Shown one piece after another: positions 16,774 through 32,133 of a stretch of 64,000 bases of DNA. A model generated the notes under the pieces. The model saw only the letters and a list, made by a program, of their open reading frames with translations. It was not told the DNA's origin and did no database searches. Both the position numbers and the translations under genes were made by a program. Location: contig NZ_PDJQ01000001.1 in assembly GCF_002563855.1 (NCBI RefSeq), positions 1,736,001 to 1,800,000 of the forward strand, read 5' to 3'. How positions within the stretch are numbered: position 1 is the stretch's first letter; each line of letters begins with the position of its first letter. This stretch comes from Tepidiforma thermophila. GTDB lineage: Bacteria > Chloroflexota > Dehalococcoidia > Tepidiformales > Tepidiformaceae.

Positions 16774-17934
16774 TTAGCCGCGCGGCAGGCCGAGACCCCG
16801 AGTGGCGATGATATTCTTCTGCACCTCCGTGGTGCCGCCGGCAATCGTCGCGGAAACCGCCTGCATGTAGCCCATCGATGCGCGGTTTCGGATGTTGCCG
16901 TACATCCCGTAAAGGTGCATGGAGAGGTTCGCGATGCGCTGGCTGAGCTCGCTGGTGAAGAGCTTGCACATGCTCGCCTCGTAGTTCGGGATCTTCCCCG
17001 CGGCCTGCATCGAGACAACGCGGTAGCTCAGCATCTTCGCGACCTCAGCCTCAATCCAGCGGTCGGCGAACTCGCGCCGCACGCTGTCGCTGTGGAACTT
17101 CGCCTCCTTGCCCTGCTTCGCCTGGCGCATCAGCCCCTCGAGCTGCTTGCGGATACCCACAGCAGACCCGATGGACGAGCGTTCGAAGTCCAGCGTGGTG
17201 GTGCCGACGTACCAGCCGCGGTTCTCTTCGCCGACACGGTTCTTGACGGGCACGCGCACGTCTTCGAAGAACACCTCGTTGAACGTCTGGGTGCCGGCAA
17301 GGGTCGTCAGGGGCCGCACGGTGATGCCGGGCGACTTCATGTCCACCAGCAGGTAGGTGATGCCGCGGTGCTTGGGCGCGTCCGGGTCGGTGCGCACCAG
17401 CATGTACATCCAGTCCGCGAACTGGGCGCCCGTCGTCCAGATTTTCTGGCCATTAATGACATAATCATCGCCATCGCGGACGGCGCGGGTTTGCAGGCTG
17501 GCGAGGTCGGAGCCGGCCCCGGGTTCGCTGTAGCCCTGGCACCAGATCACCTCGCCCCGCAGGATTTTGCCGAGGTGCTCTTCCTTCTGCTCCTCGGTGC
17601 CATGCTCGATGAGGGTCGGCCCGATCATCATCACGCCGAAGCCGCCGACGTTGGCGGGCAGCCCGGCCTCGGCGAACTCCTCGTTCATGATGAACTGCTC
17701 GACGACACTCATGTCAGCACCGCCGTACTTCTTCGGCCAGGCGGGTGCGATCCAGCCCTTGGCTGCCAGCTTGTCGCGCCATTCCTTAATGGCGCCCATC
17801 CGCGCGAAGAGGCCGCCTTCTCCGCCACCCTCGCTGCCGGCGCGGAGGGCAGCAGGCGCCTCCTTCTCGATGAACTCGCGGACTTCCTTGCGCCATGCCG
17901 CTTCGCGTTCGTTATCGCCGAGATTGATGGCCAT
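16774..17934 (-). CDS. Acyl-CoA dehydrogenase
   Basis: The 386-aa flavoprotein should oxidise an acyl-CoA to the 2-enoyl-CoA, passing electrons to ETF. The N-terminal helical domain (GWIAPAWPKKYGGADMS), the FAD-contact stretch WCQGYSEPGAGSDLASLQT, the beta domain (YVINGQKIWTTGA) and the C-terminal helices are all complete. The pattern resembles long-chain or CaiA/FadE-type enzymes found with CoA-transferases. ATG at 17934 has AAGGAAG 6 nt upstream. The gene is transcribed away from the MBL-fold and acyl-activating genes, suggesting a local lipid or carboxylic acid function. Substrate unknown. Confidence 0.9.
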   Translation of the reverse strand: MAINLGDNEREAAWRKEVREFIEKEAPAALRAGSEGGGEGGLFARMGAIKEWRDKLAAKGWIAPAWPKKYGGADMSVVEQFIMNEEFAEAGLPANVGGFGVMMIGPTLIEHGTEEQKEEHLGKILRGEVIWCQGYSEPGAGSDLASLQTRAVRDGDDYVINGQKIWTTGAQFADWMYMLVRTDPDAPKHRGITYLLVDMKSPGITVRPLTTLAGTQTFNEVFFEDVRVPVKNRVGEENRGWYVGTTTLDFERSSIGSAVGIRKQLEGLMRQAKQGKEAKFHSDSVRREFADRWIEAEVAKMLSYRVVSMQAAGKIPNYEASMCKLFTSELSQRIANLSMHLYGMYGNIRNRASMGYMQAVSATIAGGTTEVQKNIIATRGLGLPRG

Positions 17935-18235: not shown

Positions 18236-18994
18236 ATGACCAAACCAGCCCTCAATCGTCGTCCCGCGTGGCAGGAGCTCAGGCCTCTGCCCTTTCGCCC
18301 CTGCATAGAGGTCGTTCCCGGGCTTTACCAGGTTCGGACCCGGGCATCCCGCGCGTACCTGGTCGTCGATGCGGGCATCACCGTCATTGATACCGGCGCC
18401 CCGGGGTCGGGGGAGCGTATTCTCGAAGCCGTCCGCGACATCGGCCGTTCGCCCGAAGACATCCGCGACATCATCATCACCCACGCGCACATCGACCATG
18501 TCGGCGGCCTCCCTGAACTCCAGCGGTGGGTGCCGGCGCGCACCGGGATTCACCTGGCTGAGGCGCGCGACGTCGAAAGCGACGAACCCCTGCCAAATCC
18601 GTTCGCGCACGCCCTGCTTGCGCGGATTTGTGAACCGTATCTGTTGCGGGTCGATCCGGGCCCCGCGCGCATCGACGTCTACCTCCGTGATGGCGACGAA
18701 TTCCCGGCGCTTGGCGGGATGCGCATCATCCACGTCCCCGGTCACACGCCGGGCTCCATCGCCCTTCACTTCCCCGAGCGCGGTGTGCTGATTGTTGGCG
18801 ATGCTATGCAGTATCGATTCGGCAGGCTCATGCCCCCGCACCGCCTGTTCACCCGTGATATGGCCCAGGCTACCGCCTCCATCCGCAGGCTGGCGGAGCT
18901 GGATTTCGACACCCTCTGTTTCAGCCATTTCCGGCCCATCGTCCGTGACGCCGACCTGAAGGTGCGCGAGTTCGCGCGCTCCTTGCCTGCATGA
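18236..18994 (+). CDS. MBL-fold metallo-hydrolase
   Basis: The 252-aa protein has the metallo-beta-lactamase fold. THAHIDHVGG is the HxHxDH dinuclear metal motif, VPGHTPGS and GDAMQ supply further ligands, and FSHFRP gives the last His. Such proteins hydrolyse thioesters, lactones or phosphoesters. The gene's stop overlaps the next start in ATGA, so it is translationally coupled to the acyl-activating fusion; a thioesterase-like role on acyl-CoA or acyl-ACP is a reasonable inference. Confidence 0.87.
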   Translation: MTKPALNRRPAWQELRPLPFRPCIEVVPGLYQVRTRASRAYLVVDAGITVIDTGAPGSGERILEAVRDIGRSPEDIRDIIITHAHIDHVGGLPELQRWVPARTGIHLAEARDVESDEPLPNPFAHALLARICEPYLLRVDPGPARIDVYLRDGDEFPALGGMRIIHVPGHTPGSIALHFPERGVLIVGDAMQYRFGRLMPPHRLFTRDMAQATASIRRLAELDFDTLCFSHFRPIVRDADLKVREFARSLPA

Positions 18995-21441
18995 ACACGC
19001 TCGTCGAGCTGCTCGAAGCTTCGGCAGCGCGCTACCCCGACCGCGTGGCGCTGACGATGCGGGCCGGCGTGCGCGCCACGCGGTACACCTACGCCGAGCT
19101 GCTGCGACGCTCGCACGCCTGGGCCCGCCTGCTGGCCAGCCGCGGAGTGAGCAAGGGGGACCGGGTCATCGCCTGGGCCCCGAACCAGCCCGAGTGGGTC
19201 GCCGCGATGTTCGGCACGTTCATCGCCGGCGGCGTGCTGGTGCCGCTCGATGTGCGCAGCTCGCCGGAGTTCGTTGCCCGCGTTGTGGCAAGGGTTGAGC
19301 CGAAGGCAGCTTTCGCCGGACGAAGCCAGGCCGAGGAACTTGCCCGGCTCGAGGTGCCGGCCCTCGTTCTCGAGGGCGTGCGCCCGCCGCTCGATGGGCC
19401 GTTCCTTGGCCCTCCGCTGTCGGGAGCCGACCTGGCAGAAGTCATCTTCACCTCCGGCACCACCGGCGACCCGAAGGGCGTGATGCTGACCCACCGGAAC
19501 ATTGTCGCCAATGTCGAATCCGGCCTGTCGGTCATCGATATCGGCCCGGGGACGCGCATGCTGTCGCTGCTTCCGCTGAGCCATATGTTCGAACAGACTG
19601 CCGGCTGCTTCGCGCCCATCGCAGCCGGCGCCGCCGTCTGTTACCCGGCGAGCCGGCAGCCCGCATCCCTGAGCCGCGTCATGCAGGAAGGGAAGCCGAC
19701 CGTGATTATCGGCGTGCCGCAGGTGCTCAGCCTGCTGATGGCCGGCATCGAGCGGGAGGCGGCGGCCCACGGCCGCCTGGGCCTCCTCCGGATGATGCGC
19801 CGCATTTCCCAGCCGCTCCCTGCGCGCGGGCGGAGGCTCGTCTTCCACCCTGTTCTTTCGCGGTTCGGTGGTGCGCTGGACTTCGTCGCCAGCGGGGGCG
19901 CCCCCCTCGACCCCGAGGTCCAGCTCAAGTGGGAAGCGATGGGCATCGCCGTCGTGGAGGGGTACGGAACGACCGAGTGCGCACCCATCGTCACCATCAA
20001 CCCGCGCGAAGACCGGCGCGTGGGGAGCGTCGGGCGACCGCTGCCGGGCCAGCAGGTGCGTATCGCCGATGACGGCGAGGTCCTGACGCGCGGGGAGAAT
20101 GTCTTCATCGGCTACTGGCAGGCGCCCGAGGCGACCGCAGCGGCGTTCGATGGCGACTGGTACCGCACCGGTGACCTTGGCTACCTGCAGGATGGCTACC
20201 TCTACCTCAAGGGCCGGAAGAAGGACCTCATCGTCCTCGCCGACGGACAAAATGTGTACCCGGAGGATATCGAAGCGGTCCTCCGGCGGCAGCCAGGCGT
20301 AACCGACGCAGTCGTCCTCGGGCTCGCCGTCGATGGGCAGGTTCGTCTTCACGCCGTCATTGCGGAGGCCGCGCCAGGGTCAGCTGCGGAAGCAGTCCGG
20401 CGCGCGAACCAGCAGCTCGATGCGCGCCAGCAGATCCTCGGCTGGAGCACCTGGCCGGAGCCGGATTTCCCGCGGACACACACGCTGAAGGTGCGCCGGC
20501 CGCTGGTCGAGGCGTACCTCCGCGAACACCAGCCGCCGCCGGCACCCCCGCAGCAGGAGGTTGCCGACCCGCTTCTCCGCATCATCGCGGCGCTCCGCCG
20601 CACCGACGCACCGCTCGACGATGCGACGAACCTTGGGGCAGACCTCGGGCTCGATTCACTGGCCCGGGTCGAGCTGCTCTCTGCTGTTGAAGACGAGCTG
20701 GGCGTCTACGTGGACGATGCCGACGTCGGCCCGCAGACTACCATCGGTGAGCTTCGGCGCATGGTAGCCAAAGGCGAACGGAAGGTGCGCATCCGAAAGT
20801 TCCCCACCTGGCCGCGCTGGCGCACGGTCCAGTGGCTTCGGCACGCCCTCCTCTCCTTTTTTGTGTTCCCGCTCCTCCGTATTGGCTACAGCGTGGAGGT
20901 GCGCGGCCGGGAGCGGTTCGCGACCGTTCAGCAGCCCTGTCTCATCATCGCCAACCACAACATGCACCTCGACCAGGCGATGCTCCTGCGGAGCATGCCC
21001 CCCGGCTTCCGGCGCCGGGTGGCGATCGCAGCCGCGGCCAGCGACATCTTCGGAAACCGGTTGCGCGGCTTTTTCGCCAGTCTGCTGGGGAACGCCTTCC
21101 CGTTCGCCAAAGAGGGGTCCGGCGTCCGCGAGAGCCTGGAATACGTCGCGAAGATGCTTGGCGAGGGGTGGAACGTGCTGATCTTCCCCGAGGGGAAGCT
21201 GACCGTCATCGGTCCAATGCAGCCCTTCAAGTCGGGCACGGGCTTGCTCGCGGTCGAGACCGGCGTCCCGGTTTTGCCGATGCGGATCGATGTGCTCCGG
21301 CCGGGCTTCTACGAAGGGAAGTGGCTGCCCCACCCGCGGGCGCGGGTGCGCGTCAGCATCGGCGAGCCGATCCGGTTCGAACCCGGGACCTCGTACCAGG
21401 AGGCAACGCGGCGGCTGGAAGAAGCGGTCCGGAACGCCTGA
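18991..21441 (+). CDS. Fusion of acyl-activating enzyme, acyl carrier domain and PlsC-type acyltransferase
   Basis: The 816-aa protein has three domains. Residues 1-510 are an ANL adenylating domain with SGTTGDPKG (155-163), GYGTTE, YRTGDLG and the C-terminal catalytic Lys K500 in THTLKVRR. Residues about 530-595 are a phosphopantetheine-binding carrier with S556 in LGLDSLARV. Residues about 610-816 are an acyltransferase with NHNMHLD (His656/Asp661) and FPEG (732-735). It should activate a fatty acid, hold it on its own carrier and transfer it to a lysophospholipid or glycerol phosphate. E. coli Aas has the reverse domain order and lacks the internal carrier. It is coupled to the upstream MBL hydrolase. 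Confidence 0.9.
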   Translation: MNTLVELLEASAARYPDRVALTMRAGVRATRYTYAELLRRSHAWARLLASRGVSKGDRVIAWAPNQPEWVAAMFGTFIAGGVLVPLDVRSSPEFVARVVARVEPKAAFAGRSQAEELARLEVPALVLEGVRPPLDGPFLGPPLSGADLAEVIFTSGTTGDPKGVMLTHRNIVANVESGLSVIDIGPGTRMLSLLPLSHMFEQTAGCFAPIAAGAAVCYPASRQPASLSRVMQEGKPTVIIGVPQVLSLLMAGIEREAAAHGRLGLLRMMRRISQPLPARGRRLVFHPVLSRFGGALDFVASGGAPLDPEVQLKWEAMGIAVVEGYGTTECAPIVTINPREDRRVGSVGRPLPGQQVRIADDGEVLTRGENVFIGYWQAPEATAAAFDGDWYRTGDLGYLQDGYLYLKGRKKDLIVLADGQNVYPEDIEAVLRRQPGVTDAVVLGLAVDGQVRLHAVIAEAAPGSAAEAVRRANQQLDARQQILGWSTWPEPDFPRTHTLKVRRPLVEAYLREHQPPPAPPQQEVADPLLRIIAALRRTDAPLDDATNLGADLGLDSLARVELLSAVEDELGVYVDDADVGPQTTIGELRRMVAKGERKVRIRKFPTWPRWRTVQWLRHALLSFFVFPLLRIGYSVEVRGRERFATVQQPCLIIANHNMHLDQAMLLRSMPPGFRRRVAIAAAASDIFGNRLRGFFASLLGNAFPFAKEGSGVRESLEYVAKMLGEGWNVLIFPEGKLTVIGPMQPFKSGTGLLAVETGVPVLPMRIDVLRPGFYEGKWLPHPRARVRVSIGEPIRFEPGTSYQEATRRLEEAVRNA

Positions 21442-21451
21442 GGCGCTGGCC

Positions 21452-21733
21452 TCAGGACGCGCCGCCGGCGACCGCGGGCACGATGCTCACCTCGTCCCCG
21501 TCCTTGAGGGCCGTCTGGAGCCCGTCCAGGAACCGGACGTCGTCGCCGTTAACATAAATGTTGACGAACCGCCGAATCTGCCCGGCTTCGTCGACCATCC
21601 GCTCCTTGATGCCCGGGTAGGCACTCTCGAGGTTGTCGACGAGCAGCGCGAGGGTCGCTCCTTCCGCCGTCACCGTCGGCTGATTCCCGGTGAGCGGTCG
21701 GAGCGGCTGGGGAATGCGGACATGAATCGGCAC
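21452..21733 (-). CDS. MoaD/ThiS-like ubiquitin-fold sulfur carrier with masked diglycine
   Basis: The 93-aa protein has the beta-grasp pattern of MoaD/ThiS/CysO carriers, with FVNIYVNGDDVRFLDG and LKDGDEVSIVPAVAGG near the end. The diglycine (residues 90-91) is followed by Ala-Ser instead of ending the chain. Activation by an E1-like enzyme would need removal of these two residues, probably by a JAMM-type peptidase. It is the last gene of the operon with the NIL protein and threonine-synthase-like enzyme, behind a SAM riboswitch, so it probably donates sulfur for a sulfur amino acid rather than molybdopterin. No E1 or JAMM gene is in the window. Confidence 0.85.
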   Translation of the reverse strand: MPIHVRIPQPLRPLTGNQPTVTAEGATLALLVDNLESAYPGIKERMVDEAGQIRRFVNIYVNGDDVRFLDGLQTALKDGDEVSIVPAVAGGAS

Positions 21734-21805
21734 GGTCTGTTCCTTCCTTGCGTCTTCGGAAATTGATCACATGCGGCATAGTGATTGCAACGCGGAGGGG
21801 CCTGC

Positions 21806-22048
21806 TTAACCCTCGACCACATCGCCCGTCACCGGGTCGACCCGGACCCCGCGCTCCTGGGCCCAGGCGATGCTGCGTTCGATCTCATCCGGTTCACCCT
21901 CGAGCTCGAGCACAACCCACCCCGTTTTCTCGTCAACGTCGGCCATCCGGACGTTGGTGATGACCTGGAACTCGTGGCCGAGGCGGTAGATGATCGGCTC
22001 CCGGATGAGGTTTTCGGGAAAGGTAAACCGGACACGTTTGACGGCCAT
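21806..22048 (-). CDS. NIL-domain protein
   Basis: This 80-aa protein is a stand-alone NIL domain, a ferredoxin-like fold first seen at the C-terminus of the methionine importer ATPase MetN, where it binds methionine and inhibits transport. Diagnostic features are VRFTFPENLIREPIIYRLG, VRMADVDEKTGWVVLELEG and the AWAQERGVRV end. Its ATG overlaps the stop of the threonine-synthase-like gene (ATGA), so the two are coupled. Ligand-responsive control of the neighbouring enzyme, or a structural role in sulfur transfer, is inferred. Confidence 0.88.
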   Translation of the reverse strand: MAVKRVRFTFPENLIREPIIYRLGHEFQVITNVRMADVDEKTGWVVLELEGEPDEIERSIAWAQERGVRVDPVTGDVVEG

Positions 22049-23292
22049 CAGGCGACTCCCTGTGCCAAACGGGCACCGTAGGCAGCTTCGAAGCTCTCAA
22101 TCGTGGCGTCAATCTCGAGCGGCGGGTTGAGCGCCTCGGCCACTGCTTCGACCGTCTTGAACCCGGCGCCCGTGATGAACGCCACGGTGAGCTCGTCAGG
22201 GTGAATTCTGCCCTGTTCGGCCAGCTGCTTCAGCGAGGCGATGGTGACGCCGCCTGCCGTCTCGGCGAAGATCCCTTCCGTTTCGGCCAGCAGCTTCATC
22301 CCGGCAACGATCTCGTCGTCGGTCACGCTCCCGCAGGCGCCGCCCGTCTCCTTGAGCTGCACGAGGCTGTAATAGCCGTCGGCCGGGTTGCCGATTGCGA
22401 GCGATTTGGCGATCGTGTTCGGCCGCTGCGGACGGAAGTTCATCGAACCTTCCTGCCACGCGGTCGCGACCGGCGAGCAGCCGGCAGCCTGTGCCCCGCT
22501 CATCCGCGTCTTCGGCTCATCGATGAGTCCGGTCTTCCAGAGCTCCTGGAGCCCCTTACGAATCTTCACGAAGAGCGAACCGCTCGCAATCGGTACGACG
22601 CAATGGTCGGGGGCCCGCCAGCCGAGCTGTTCGGCAACCTCGAAGCCGAGCGTCTTCGAGCCTTCCGAGTAGTACGGGCGGACATTCACATTGACGAACG
22701 CCCAGTTGTACGAGCCGGCCAGCTCGGCGCAGAGGCGGTTCACCGCATCGTAGTTGCCGCGCACCTTCACCAGCGTCGGCCCGTAGATGCTCGAACCGAG
22801 CACCTTCCCCAGTTCGAGGTCGTGCGGAATGAACACGACAGCCTCCATCCCGGCTGCAGCGGCGTGCGCGCTCACGCTGTTCGCAAGGTTGCCCGTGCTG
22901 GCGCAGGCCAGCTTGTCGTACCCCAGCTCCCTGGCGCGGCTGGCTGCGACCGCCACCACGCGGTCCTTGAACGACCAGGTCGGGTTGACCGTGTCGTTCT
23001 TGATGTACAGGTGGTTCAATCCCAGCGCCTTGCCCAGGTTCTTCGCCCGAATGAGCGGAGTAAATCCGGCCCCGATATCGATGGCAGCATCCGGGTCGCA
23101 CGGCAGGTAGTCCCGGTAGCGCCACAGTGAGGCCGGCCCGCGCTCGATCCGGTCCCGGGAAACCGACTTCCGAATGGCGTCGTAGTCGTACGTAACCTCA
23201 ACCGGCCCGAAGCAGAAGTCGCACACGTGTCGCGCTTCGAGCGCGTACTCACGGTGACACTCGCGACAACGGAGATTTTTGGCAAAGCTCAT
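22048..23292 (-). CDS. Threonine-synthase-like PLP enzyme with N-terminal zinc ribbon
   Basis: The 414-aa fold-type II PLP enzyme has an N-terminal Cys4 zinc ribbon (C9, C12, C24, C27) and the PLP lysine K109 in NPTWSFKDR. The phosphate-binding STGNLANS, seen as CASTGNLANSVSAHA, and the C-terminal TGAGFKTVEAV are family features. Classical ThrC converts O-phosphohomoserine to threonine; here the residue two before the Lys-Phe pair is Trp where NPTGSFKDR is usual. With a SAM-I riboswitch upstream and NIL and sulfur-carrier genes downstream, sulfhydrylation of O-phosphohomoserine or a related ester is a serious alternative to threonine synthesis. ATG at 23292 has GGGAGGAAG upstream. Confidence 0.85.
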   Translation of the reverse strand: MSFAKNLRCRECHREYALEARHVCDFCFGPVEVTYDYDAIRKSVSRDRIERGPASLWRYRDYLPCDPDAAIDIGAGFTPLIRAKNLGKALGLNHLYIKNDTVNPTWSFKDRVVAVAASRARELGYDKLACASTGNLANSVSAHAAAAGMEAVVFIPHDLELGKVLGSSIYGPTLVKVRGNYDAVNRLCAELAGSYNWAFVNVNVRPYYSEGSKTLGFEVAEQLGWRAPDHCVVPIASGSLFVKIRKGLQELWKTGLIDEPKTRMSGAQAAGCSPVATAWQEGSMNFRPQRPNTIAKSLAIGNPADGYYSLVQLKETGGACGSVTDDEIVAGMKLLAETEGIFAETAGGVTIASLKQLAEQGRIHPDELTVAFITGAGFKTVEAVAEALNPPLEIDATIESFEAAYGARLAQGVA

Positions 23293-23378
23293 GCTCTTCC
23301 TCCCTGAGCGGTGGGCCCGCAGCAGCCCCGGCGCGGCTGCGCAGTGCTCGGCGGGCAACGGCGTCGACGGTACGGGAG

Positions 23379-27306: not shown

Positions 27307-28194
27307 GTGGCTGACAACGGGTCTGTCCAGGGAGCAACCATCTACGCCGTCGAGGAGTACACCGTACAGGAGGAACCCTACTACCTCCCGATCGGCGACG
27401 AAGTCCAGCTGTTCGAAACCGCCTACCGGCAGCGCATCCCGGTACTGTTGAAGGGCCCGACCGGTGCCGGCAAGACCCGCTTCGTTGAATACATGGCCTA
27501 CCGGCTGGGTCGCCCCATGATGAAAATCTCTTCCCGTACCGGCGAGGAAGTTGAGCACCGGATGCCCCTTATTACCGTCGCCTGCCACGAAGACCTCACC
27601 GCCAGCGACCTGGTGGGACGGTATCTTCTCGACACCGACGGCACCCGCTGGGTCGACGGTCCGCTCACCCGAGCGGTCAAGGTCGGCGCAATCTGCTACC
27701 TCGACGAGGTGGTCGAAGCGCGCAAGGACACCACCGTCCTCATCCATCCGCTCACCGACTACCGCCGCCTCCTCCCGATCGAGAAGCTCGGCCAGGTGAT
27801 CGAGGCGGCCGAGGGCTTCCTGCTGGTGATCAGCTACAACCCCGGCTACCAGAGCGCGCTCAAGGACTTGAAGCACTCGACGCGGCAGCGCTTCATCGCG
27901 ATCGAATTCAACTACCCGCCGCGCGACGCCGAAGCAAAAATCATCGCGCGCGAGTCAGGCTGCGATGAGCGCACCGCGATGGACCTCGCCCGCCTTGGCG
28001 AAAAGGTGCGAAACCTGAAGGAGCACGGGCTCGGCGAGGGTGTGAGCACCCGTCTGCTGGTCTACGCAGGCCGCCTCATTGCGCAGGGCATCGCCCCTCG
28101 GCGCGCCTGCCAGGTCGCCATCACCTGGGCCCTCACCGACGACTCCGAAGTGCAGCGCTCCATCGAAGAGGTGGTGACGAGCATCTTCGAGTAG
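27307..28194 (+). CDS. MoxR-type AAA+ ATPase of the CbbQ/NorQ family
   Basis: The 295-aa ATPase has Walker A GPTGAGKT (50-57), Walker B AICYLDEV (about 128-135), a sensor region [15 protein letters not shown] with the arginine-finger HSTRQRF, and the C-terminal CbbQ helical part. Relatives work as hexamers with a vWA partner to remodel an enzyme: CbbQ/CbbO on Rubisco, NorQ/NorD on nitric oxide reductase. The giant vWA protein two genes downstream is the likely partner, while a metallophosphoesterase is inserted between them. The target enzyme is not in the window. Confidence 0.9.
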
Positions 28195-28202
28195 GGGCAG
28201 CT

Positions 28203-28814
28203 GTGCGCCTCGGCATCGTCTCCGATATCCACTGCAACATCCAGGGCCTCGAACGGGCGCTTGAGCTGATGGCACCGTTCGACCAGCTCTGGTGTGCCGG
28301 GGACAGCGTTTTCCAGTTCCGCTGGTCGAACGAAGTGGTCGCCCGGCTCCGTGAGCTGGATGCCGTGGTCGTGCTCGGCAATCACGAAGAGACCCTGCTC
28401 GGCCCCGATGGCCAGCGCGCGCTCTCCAGCCCAAAGGTCGACCAGGACCTGGTGGCCTGGCTCCGGCAGCAGCCGTACCGGGTCGAGCGGATGGTCGACG
28501 GCAAGAAGGTCATGATGACCCACGGTTCCCCGTGGGAGCCCTGGAAGGACTACCACTACCCGCACGAACCGATCTGGGCGCGAGCAGCCGAGCTGCCTTG
28601 TGACGTGCTCATCGTGGGCCACACCCATTACAAGATGGCACTCCGCGTGGGGGACGTTCTGGTGATTAACCCCGGCTCGGCCGGGGACCCGCGGGACCAC
28701 CGCAACGACTTCCAGCTCTCCTGCGCGACCTGGGACACGACAACCGGGGAAGTCGTCTTCTACGATTACCCTGACCCGACCCGCAATTTCGTCCGGCATT
28801 CGGGGGAGCAGTGA
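28203..28814 (+). CDS. Calcineurin-like metallophosphoesterase
   Basis: The 203-aa protein has the full YfcE/MJ0936-type dimetal phosphoesterase motif set: SDIHCN near the start, AGDSV, LGNHEE, MTHGSPWE and VGHTHYKM. It should hydrolyse a phosphodiester or phosphomonoester; the substrate is unknown. A GTG start follows GTAGGGGCAG, 8 nt after the ATPase stop. Its place between an AAA+ ATPase and its vWA partner suggests a shared pathway or only co-transcription. Confidence 0.88.
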   Translation: MRLGIVSDIHCNIQGLERALELMAPFDQLWCAGDSVFQFRWSNEVVARLRELDAVVVLGNHEETLLGPDGQRALSSPKVDQDLVAWLRQQPYRVERMVDGKKVMMTHGSPWEPWKDYHYPHEPIWARAAELPCDVLIVGHTHYKMALRVGDVLVINPGSAGDPRDHRNDFQLSCATWDTTTGEVVFYDYPDPTRNFVRHSGEQ

Positions 28815-28896
28815 CCCGCACCTTCTCCGCATTTGCTCCATCCCCCGCCGACTCAGCGCATCGCCACGGCAAGGAGGTCGTCGCCGAAGCCAGCCT

Positions 28897-31800
28897 ATGT
28901 CCATCGTGACCGAACTCCTCGCCCGCCACCAGGAACGCCTTTCCGGCTTCCCCGCGCCGCTCCAGCAGCAGTTCGAAGCCGGCCTCCGTGCCTTGGCCGG
29001 CCGGCTTAGCCCCTCACAGCTCCAGGCCTGGGCCGAGACCGGCATGGAGCTCACCGCCCTCAGCCTCCGCAGCTGGGAAGCCGCTGTCGAGTACTTCAAG
29101 GCCGGCACGGCCTATCCCGAGTTGGCGACCTGGGATGCGATCGAGACCGTCGGCCGCGACGCGCTGCAGATGGCGGCCGAATCGGCGCCGCTGGCCGTGT
29201 CGTTCCTTCGCGCTGCCCCGGCTGCCATGCAGGCGATTGGTCCCGGCCACATGCACGCCTGGGCCGAGCTCGGCCGGCGGCTGTACAAGGGCAACTGGAA
29301 GAGCTCCTCCCTCGCTGCCCAGTTTTACGAAGTCGCGCCCGAGCTCTTCCGCATCATCCGCATGGGCCAGGCCTCCCGGCTGGTCATCTTCATCGATGAG
29401 CTGGCCCGGCACAGTTACGAGCTGGCGAGCGCCTGCCTTGCCTCGGCACCGGCGGTGCTCGCCCGGCTGGAAGAGGACGACCGGCTCCCGTTCATCACGT
29501 TCGCGACCGAGCTGGCCCAGAGCTCGTGGGCCGACTCGCGCCTCTATTTCGACCGCGGCGTTCCGCTCCTCGAAAAGATCCACGCCCCCCTCCGGGAACG
29601 GTTCCTGCTGCTTGCAGCCCAGGCAGCCCGGGGCCACCAGCGCTCGGTCTTCCAGTACTTCGAGGATGCCGCCAACGCGCTCGGAGAGCTCGAACCGACG
29701 GACCATCAGCAGATCATCATGCTCGCCGAGCAGCTCGCCCCGTACTCGCCGTTCGCCGCGATGGACTTCATCACCGTCATGCCGACTGTCCTCCAGCGGA
29801 TCCGCATTGACGAGCTCGAAGCCTGGCAGCAGGCCGGGCTGCGCGTCCTCCAGGTCAGCCAGGAAGGCGGAGAGGCGTACTTCCGCCTCCAGTCGACCCG
29901 CGCCGAGGAGATCCTCGAAAACCTGTCCTCACGCGTTGAGCTGTCGCGAGTCGGCGAGGTGCTGCGTCTCTACTGCAAGGCGCTTACCGGCCGGAATGTG
30001 AGCATCCAGACAGCCGAAGCTCTTGCCGAAAAAGGCATCGGCTGGGTCGACGAGCACCGGGCAAGCACCGATGGGTCAACAATCTTCCTGCCTGAGCTCA
30101 TGGAGCGGTTCCCCGCGAAGGAAGACAACTTCGCCGCCATGAAGGTCTTTGCCACCCACCAGGCGGCCCACATCGAGTTTGGGAGCTTCGCCTTCGAGTT
30201 CCGGCGGCCGGGCAACGTCTTCCCGCTCCGTCGCGTCGCCTTCGCGCGCGAGCGCGAGCGGCCGGCGACGACTGACATGGAAGAGTTCTTCGACCTCTTC
30301 CCGGACCGTCAGCTGGCAAGCGACCTCTTTACCATCGCGGAAGATGCCCGCATCGATGCGCGGGTGAAGCACGAATACGGCGGCATCCGGCGGCAGCTGG
30401 TGCGCATGCAGGCCGAAGAACTCGAGCGGCGCCCCCAGATTGAACTGATGCCGCTGCGCAACGCCTTTGTCGAGAACCTCGTCCGCGCCAGCCTCGACGG
30501 CCTCCACCGGGTGCGGTGGCCGCGTGAGCGCGCGGATGAAATGAGCCGTGCCCTGGGCATCCTCCGCGCCGTGCAGCAGCCAGCGGCGACCGTGGAGGAC
30601 GCCGCGGAGGCGGCCCTTGCGCTGTACGAAATCGCCATCTCCATCCCGAACATCCGCGATGACCTCGATCCCGCTGACTGGGACTCCGTCGAGCCGATGG
30701 AGGCCGGGCAGGCGATGCCGATGGAGGCTGCCGGGGAGGAGGGTGGACAGGGCACACAGGCGCAGCTCGGCGGCAGCGGCGAGGGCGACGAGGAGTACGA
30801 GAGCCCGCAGGAGATCGACTTCCGGGGCGACTTCAAGCCGGAGCTCGTTGACCTGCTGATGAAGCTCCGGGAAAACGCCCAGGGTGGGCAGGCGGGCCAG
30901 CAGCAGACCATGCCGCTGACCCCGGAACAGCTCGCCGAGCTGCTTGCGAAGAGCGTCGAGATCGACCTCAACGCAATGGACGAAGGCGACCTCGACGCCT
31001 CCACCGGCATGTTCCTCTCGAATTTGATGAAGGAGGCCGGGACCCCGGCTTCGGAAAAGGGTGAACAGGGAGGCCAGCCGACCAGCGACCAGTCGACGGG
31101 CGAGAGCCCGGGAGAAGAGCCGCTCAAGCCGGTGGTCACTGTCTACTACTACGATGAGTGGGACTTCCGGGCCCAGGATTACAAGCCACGCTGGTGCGCC
31201 GTCAAAGAGGCCAAACTCGAGGAAGGCGACGAAGGCTTCTACGAAAAGGCCCTGCGCGAGCACGCCGGGCTCGTCGCCCAGACCCGCAAGCAGTTCGAGC
31301 TGATGAAGCCGGAGATGTTCCGGAAAATCAAGCGCCTCCCGGATGGCGAGGACTTCGACCTCGACTCAGCAATCGAATGGATGGTCGAAAAGCGCGCCGG
31401 CGCAAACCCGACAGAAAAGATCTACTGGCGCCGCAACAAAATCGAGCGCGACGTCGCCGTCGCGTTCCTCATCGACATGTCCGCCAGCACTGACGAGGAA
31501 ATCAACAAGCGCGACAAGCAGTTCGACGATGACGACTATGACGACCCCCGGAAGTATCTGAGCTGGTGGGTATCGAAACGTCGTCAGGAGCTTACGTCAC
31601 CGCCGAAGCGTATCATCGACCTTGAGAAGGAGTCGACCGTTCTCCTGATGACTGCACTGGAGACGATTGGCGACCAGTACGGTATTTACGGTTTCTCCGG
31701 TTACGGACGCGATAACGTCGAATTTTTCGTCATTAAGGACTTCGACGAGACGCTCGACCAGAAAATCAAGAACCGGCTTGACAAGGTCGTCCCGATTCGC

Positions 31801-32133
31801 TCGACACGAATGGGGCCGGCAATCCGCCACGCAACCTACAAACTCCTCCAGACCGACGCGAAGGTCAAAATCCTCTTCCTGCTTAGCGATGGCCGGCCCC
31901 AGGACCACGGCTACGGGCGCGACCGAACCGAGAAGGAATACGCCATCCACGACACCAAGCAGGCCCTGAATGAGGCCAAGCGCGAAGGCATCACCCCCTT
32001 CGCCCTCACCGTCGACCGTGCTGGCCATGACTACCTGAAGACCATGTGTGAAGACATGGGGTACGAGGTGGTCGCAGACATCGAGTCGCTGCCCAGCCGT
32101 CTGCCTGCGCTCTACCGCCGGCTGACGGAGTAG
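28897..32133 (+). CDS. Giant vWA-domain protein (CbbO/NorD-like) with N-terminal helical repeats
   Basis: The 1078-aa protein has three regions. Residues about 1-400 are repeated amphipathic helices with recurring Ala-, Trp- and Leu-rich patterns, probably a solenoid. Residues about 400-850 hold a CbbO/NorD-like middle region and an acidic, Gln/Gly-rich linker. The C-terminal von Willebrand A domain keeps the MIDAS residues D860-x-S862-x-S864, T970 and D998 in LLSDGRPQD, with a charged insertion after the first motif. CbbO proteins are usually near 700-800 aa, so this is unusually long. It should pair with the CbbQ/NorQ-type ATPase upstream to remodel an unknown metal enzyme. Confidence 0.85.
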   Translation: MSIVTELLARHQERLSGFPAPLQQQFEAGLRALAGRLSPSQLQAWAETGMELTALSLRSWEAAVEYFKAGTAYPELATWDAIETVGRDALQMAAESAPLAVSFLRAAPAAMQAIGPGHMHAWAELGRRLYKGNWKSSSLAAQFYEVAPELFRIIRMGQASRLVIFIDELARHSYELASACLASAPAVLARLEEDDRLPFITFATELAQSSWADSRLYFDRGVPLLEKIHAPLRERFLLLAAQAARGHQRSVFQYFEDAANALGELEPTDHQQIIMLAEQLAPYSPFAAMDFITVMPTVLQRIRIDELEAWQQAGLRVLQVSQEGGEAYFRLQSTRAEEILENLSSRVELSRVGEVLRLYCKALTGRNVSIQTAEALAEKGIGWVDEHRASTDGSTIFLPELMERFPAKEDNFAAMKVFATHQAAHIEFGSFAFEFRRPGNVFPLRRVAFARERERPATTDMEEFFDLFPDRQLASDLFTIAEDARIDARVKHEYGGIRRQLVRMQAEELERRPQIELMPLRNAFVENLVRASLDGLHRVRWPRERADEMSRALGILRAVQQPAATVEDAAEAALALYEIAISIPNIRDDLDPADWDSVEPMEAGQAMPMEAAGEEGGQGTQAQLGGSGEGDEEYESPQEIDFRGDFKPELVDLLMKLRENAQGGQAGQQQTMPLTPEQLAELLAKSVEIDLNAMDEGDLDASTGMFLSNLMKEAGTPASEKGEQGGQPTSDQSTGESPGEEPLKPVVTVYYYDEWDFRAQDYKPRWCAVKEAKLEEGDEGFYEKALREHAGLVAQTRKQFELMKPEMFRKIKRLPDGEDFDLDSAIEWMVEKRAGANPTEKIYWRRNKIERDVAVAFLIDMSASTDEEINKRDKQFDDDDYDDPRKYLSWWVSKRRQELTSPPKRIIDLEKESTVLLMTALETIGDQYGIYGFSGYGRDNVEFFVIKDFDETLDQKIKNRLDKVVPIRSTRMGPAIRHATYKLLQTDAKVKILFLLSDGRPQDHGYGRDRTEKEYAIHDTKQALNEAKREGITPFALTVDRAGHDYLKTMCEDMGYEVVADIESLPSRLPALYRRLTE

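Follow-up and report, generated by a model that had tools for sequence, protein, structure and literature searches.

The window (the whole stretch of 64,000 nucleotides of Tepidiforma thermophila DNA that was analysed) encodes an 816-residue protein, P0002, in which an acyl-activating AMP-binding domain, an acyl-carrier domain (ACP) and a PlsC-type acyltransferase are joined in one chain, and across the genomes studied its neighbour, an MBL-fold metallohydrolase (P0001 in the window), follows the acyltransferase and not the carrier, because it stays by PlsC in three genomes where AMP-ACP is absent. On balance, P0002 is probably a self-loading acyl-ACP synthetase/acyltransferase, resembling Aas with a built-in carrier. 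New here is that an MBL gene adjoins the fused gene at 40 of the 48 loci inspected (a set biased to the best matches and to the window's genus), whether in tandem, divergent or convergent layout, and that it lies beside a stand-alone PlsC gene in three genomes that have no AMP-ACP at the locus. Equally new, the MBL-linked acyltransferases mostly carry PEG[K/R]LT in block III, like Aas and unlike ElbD or canonical PlsC. The main interest lies in the MBL-PlsC link and the tethered carrier, not in the domain order.

A conserved fusion with its own acyl carrier

The features of the locus, which belongs to a single-contig genome of 2.74 Mb, are listed in Table 1. Most of what the initial annotation had read from the locus held up: the 816-residue open reading frame carries Pfam AMP-binding, PP-binding and Acyltransferase domains, the proposed carrier residue S556 is the serine of a GLDSL motif inside the PP-binding domain, the catalytic residues are intact, the upstream MBL gene overlaps the fusion by four bases (ATGA), and the domain order is opposite to that of Aas, which in E. 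coli MG1655 has PlsC at residues 15-137, AMP-binding at 233-568 and no PP-binding domain. When 25 diverse fused proteins were aligned, S556, E329, D395, R409 and K500 were invariant and the phosphate loop 154-162 was conserved, while H656 and D661 of the HX4D motif, present in the window protein, were intact in 22 of the 25 relatives. P0002 thus has the features of ANL acyl-activating enzymes (the TSGTTG..K loop, T154-K162, and the catalytic C-terminal lysine, K500), of phosphopantetheine carriers (the DSL serine, D555-S556, within the PP-binding domain) and of AGPAT/PlsC enzymes (HX4D, H656 and D661, and EG, P733-E734-G735). Its AlphaFold model has a mean pLDDT of 85.

Table 1. Coordinates and basis of the features discussed (window positions unless a genome or locus is named)
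Feature	Position	Strand	Basis
Acyl-CoA dehydrogenase, divergent	16774..17934	-	Pfam
MBL-fold metallohydrolase, P0001, 252 aa	18236..18994	+	PF00753 E 8.5e-33; HxHxDH complete
ATGA, overlap of MBL stop and fusion start	18991..18994	+	sequence
AMP-binding/ACP/PlsC fusion, P0002, 816 aa	18991..21441	+	ORF, Pfam, conservation
AMP-binding (acyl-activating) domain, aa 8-376	19012..20118	+	PF00501 E 4e-82
AMP-binding_C_3 C-terminal subdomain, aa 412-505	20224..20505	+	PF23562 E 8e-4, just under cut-off
K500 codon, C-terminal AMP subdomain	20488-20490	+	K500 in 25/25 relatives
Acyl-carrier PP-binding domain, aa 534-590	20590..20760	+	PF00550 E 1e-7
S556 codon, acyl-carrier domain	20656-20658	+	S556 in 25/25 relatives
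PlsC/AGPAT acyltransferase domain, aa 635-766	20893..21288	+	PF01553 E 3e-18
H656-X4-D661 of acyltransferase domain	20956-20973	+	motif table
Block III PEGKLT of acyltransferase domain	21187-21204	+	motif table
Separate canonical PlsC of host	G000:C1:1353405-1353776		genome search
~110-aa protein after fused or PlsC-only gene	L064 4168-4530, L176 6442-6771, L175 6111-6449, L187 5952-6272, L188 8406-8726		

The domain search across genomes proposed along with that annotation found the same order, with a hit over all three domains in about 50 of 400 genomes spread across some 20 families of Chloroflexota, a figure that is our own count and in which a few matches are clipped by contig ends. Since the three domains are conserved over these genomes, chance or artefact can be excluded as the origin of the fusion. 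Within the window genome's own family, the full-length fusion was present in 16 of the 37 genomes searched. Among the matches listed, full-length fusions also occurred in Acidobacteriota, Bacteroidota and Verrucomicrobiota, although presence outside Chloroflexota was only sampled and the matches listed there were mostly plain AMP-binding proteins.

Some arrangements depart from the simple one. At L059 (G239:C305, 983-7633) one MBL gene is flanked by two AMP-ACP-PlsC fusions in tandem, the upstream copy being divergent (~32% identity, block III PQGTHA). Six loci, mostly of large-genome Chloroflexota (L047-L052), hold stand-alone AMP-binding proteins of 520-560 aa, followed directly in at least three of them by an rsmI-like gene, as judged by its N-terminal sequence. 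We considered whether these represent a split operon with AMP, ACP and PlsC as separate neighbours and rejected this: they look like losses, because they are nested in the fusion clade and no ACP or PlsC of the fusion kind lies within ~3 kb.

The MBL hydrolase accompanies the acyltransferase

P0001 has the HxHxDH motif together with the distal His and Asp metal ligands of MBL-fold hydrolases, and H83, H85, D87, H88, H170, D189 and H231 were invariant among 21 relatives. Its AlphaFold model (pLDDT 93) matched LACTB2, GloB-type enzymes and PqsE with Z scores of 22-24; the fold search returned generic MBL relatives only, and no NCBIfam equivalog cut-off was reached.

The four-base stop/start overlap with the fusion is common to most loci of the window genome's family, where the pair stands in tandem; elsewhere the MBL gene is divergent (L021-L024, L026) or convergent (L017), and this variation argues that the link is not merely one inherited operon layout. 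A reverse search of the 400 genomes pointed the same way, with 25 of the best 27 MBL matches (at least 290 bits) lying beside a fusion. The other two were in G335, on another contig, the fusion of this genome ending near a contig edge, and in G247, beside a stand-alone PlsC. Of the eight fused loci at which no MBL gene was found, one (L032) is at a contig end, and the MBL is missing beside fused forms with a degenerate or other-type acyltransferase. In G011 and G023, it directly precedes a stand-alone PlsC gene at a locus without AMP-ACP. The PlsC-only sequences of the family fall within the family's fused clade, and the neighbours of G011 and other PlsC-only members match the fused locus of sister genomes, sharing with it a ~110-aa protein, a type IV leader peptidase homologue and sometimes an acyl-CoA dehydrogenase (approximate gene calls, made with a simple script based on codon bias). 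Given these shared neighbours and the nesting of the sequences, the simplest reading is that such members would have lost AMP-ACP and kept MBL and PlsC.

These patterns bear on two accounts of what the MBL does. According to the first, MBL and PlsC would remodel one lipid as a deacylation/reacylation pair, with AMP-ACP as an optional self-loading donor that some lineages dropped. The persistence of the MBL where AMP-ACP is absent is consistent with this, and so is the way it tracks both the block III motif and a single acyltransferase clade that holds every MBL-linked sequence (SH-aLRT 97); action of this MBL on lipids would nevertheless be a proposal from sequence, and we regard the pair as unlikely. 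The known lipid hydrolases with an MBL fold, such as NAPE-PLD, belong to another MBL branch, which speaks against the pair.

The second account, raised when the locus was first annotated, is that the MBL hydrolyses stalled or wrong acyl groups off the carrier. Translational coupling with the fusion and the presence of the MBL-fold thioesterases GloB and PqsE among the structural matches would fit such an editor, but a match of this fold is common to MBL hydrolases in general, no MBL was found beside eight fused genes, and in G011, G023 and G247 the MBL adjoins a PlsC that has no carrier. This pairing without a carrier, together with the single MBL-linked PlsC clade, argues against a role mainly in carrier editing, which as a general function is not supported and which we consider improbable. 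No relevant paper on an MBL-type enzyme that edits acyl-ACP turned up in a literature search.

Several further genes around these loci deserve mention. A relative of the acyl-CoA dehydrogenase that lies upstream in the window (cluster C3) is also found by the locus in L064, L174, L175 and L188, a candidate functional link. The ~110-aa protein comes directly after the fusion gene, or after PlsC where this stands alone, in several family genomes, often near the type IV leader peptidase homologue, and had no Pfam match in the two copies tested. In the window, at 21452-23358 (-), three genes in a row encode a ThiS/MoaD-like sulfur carrier (93 aa), an 80-aa NIL-domain protein and a threonine-synthase-like PLP enzyme. 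Together they hint at an amino-acid synthase that depends on a sulfur carrier, as opposed to ordinary threonine synthesis. At 27307-32133 (+), a CbbQ/NorQ-type AAA ATPase gene and one small gene precede a gene for a 1078-aa VWA protein, forming a MoxR/VWA-like pair.

Acyltransferase type and proposed function

The only PDB sequence match of the PlsC domain, and its nearest solved sequence, was PlsC of T. maritima (5KYM, E 8e-9). Block III corresponds to motif 3 (xxEGxx), which is listed with the motifs that serve substrate recognition and activity (PMC8753187). In the MBL-linked clade it is mostly PEG[KR]LT, with the variants ELT, NLF and DRT, compared with PEGRIT in Aas and with the PEGTRS that canonical PlsC has in related genomes. 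We tried and rejected the idea that the fusion is the organism's sole PlsC. Since the host genome encodes canonical PlsC and PlsY separately, the fusion is auxiliary to them.

Three fused relatives (L045, L058, L060) have NYQ in place of NHX4D, SPEGNP in block III and no MBL. Their acyltransferase is probably inactive or repurposed, to judge from these residues, and since they lost HX4D some lineages may use the fusion for something else.

For P0002, we propose that the AMP-binding domain would adenylate a free fatty acid, that the acyl group would then be loaded on S556 of this same protein through its phosphopantetheine and that the C-terminal PlsC domain would move it to the hydroxyl of a lysolipid. 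The acceptor would more likely be of the lysophospholipid type than lysophosphatidic acid, a weak indication that comes from the likeness of block III to that of Aas; this likeness involves about three residues and may be convergent. The fusion would act beside, not instead of, the canonical PlsY/PlsC route, and the co-encoded MBL would belong functionally to the acyltransferase half. Conservation of the catalytic residues and of the architecture speaks for this self-loading reading, as does an AcpS-type phosphopantetheinyl transferase gene that adjoins the fusion in relative G046. Against it, the PlsC half occurs without AMP-ACP in several genomes of the family and can thus apparently accept acyl groups from another donor.

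In a broader and more tentative form, for which the odds are low, MBL and PlsC would be the core of a Chloroflexota lipid-remodelling module with AMP-ACP as a removable self-loading front, a tethered-carrier counterpart of LplT/Aas. No earlier description of an MBL partner for such a module was found in the literature searched. If the self-loading proposal is true, fatty-acid salvage and lipid acylation would proceed within a single polypeptide by way of a tethered carrier, and P0002 would offer a smaller enzyme than ElbD for asking whether an acyltransferase draws acyl groups from its own carrier. The conserved MBL partner, in following the acyltransferase, connects lipid acylation with an MBL hydrolase in a way that is open to testing.

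Relation to ElbD and ether lipids

The implication of the initial annotation that the domain order is novel was not borne out. ElbD has the same order, which makes the layout one of a known kind. A literature search by domain words for AMP-binding/PlsC/ACP fusions found nothing. A review (PMC9131029) gives the domains of ElbD as FAR1-like, ACS, ACP and AGPAT-like, and a sponge survey has the same order (PMC9426513). According to the review, ElbD-like homologues of some other phyla are mostly without FAR1, and the ACS and ACP activities of ElbD were confirmed in vitro while acyltransferase activity was not detected (PMC9131029); of these results, the confirmed activities favour our proposal for P0002 and the undetected one counts against it. 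The domain order is therefore already known, from ElbD and from FAR-less ElbD-like proteins in other phyla. In our searches, myxobacterial open reading frames of ~1500-1800 aa matched residues 3-808 of the fusion at ~35% identity, and one of them had the ElbD architecture by Pfam, with FAR (NAD_binding_4), AMP-binding, PP-binding and Acyltransferase domains.

P0002 could accordingly be asked to be an ElbD-type enzyme that holds acyl groups for alkyl or alkenyl ether lipids, with the reductase supplied by another protein. Besides the domain order, the use of ElbD-like genes as ether-lipid markers and the ElbD matches that a Black Sea survey reported in Chloroflexota (PMC11868695) favour this, but some carriers of ElbD showed no ether lipids (PMC11868695), block III differs from that of ElbD, and Pfam found no FAR domain (NAD_binding_4 or Sterile) in P0002, a match that L155 and L152 do have, nor was one noticed among the neighbours examined. 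The AMP-binding domains of the Chloroflexota fusions form a clade of their own (SH-aLRT 100; it includes one acidobacterial protein on a long branch) that stands apart from myxobacterial ElbD. In quick trees, for which the tested groups were named after the first tree was seen, a clade of Chloroflexota fusions plus ElbD was rejected (p-AU 0.006), while a single clade, and thus one shared ancestry, of all AMP-ACP-PlsC proteins was not (p-AU 0.256). In view of these trees, we did not assign P0002 to ElbD; it would work like ElbD and may be a distant relative, and we think the ether-lipid role improbable. BLAST matches to ElbD in Chloroflexota need not signify ether lipids.

A role of AMP-ACP in loading some unusual acid to make a specialised metabolite outside the membrane, as the NRPS-like domain logic and the fused relatives with a degenerate HX4D could suggest, is highly improbable: no biosynthetic cluster was seen near the copy in the window or near the relatives inspected, and the identified neighbours are mostly housekeeping genes.

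Comparison with known systems

P0001 shares its fold and metal-binding residues with MBL-fold hydrolases such as GloB/YcbL, LACTB2, PqsE and TTHA1429, from which it differs at the level of sequence (~16-26% identity in structural alignments). ElbD of Myxococcus xanthus and other myxobacteria combines AMP-binding, ACP and a PlsC-type domain in one chain in the same order as the fusion; however, it has an N-terminal fatty acyl reductase that P0002 lacks and PEGTRS in block III (PEGTR in nearly all ElbD) instead of PEGKLT, and the short flanks examined showed no MBL partner. With PlsC, the 1-acyl-G3P acyltransferase, the fusion has the acyltransferase domain and HX4D in common, whereas canonical PlsC, which carries PEGTRS, has a gene of its own in the host genome. 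Aas of E. coli makes acyl-ACP and then acylates lysophospholipid, using a separate holo-ACP (PMC11416262). The fusion would unite the same two enzyme activities in one chain, and its PEGKLT resembles the PEGRIT of Aas, but the defining layout of Aas, with PlsC first, AMP-binding second and no covalent carrier, is not that of P0002, in which the order is reversed and a PP-binding domain, which Aas does not have, would stand in for the separate holo-ACP.
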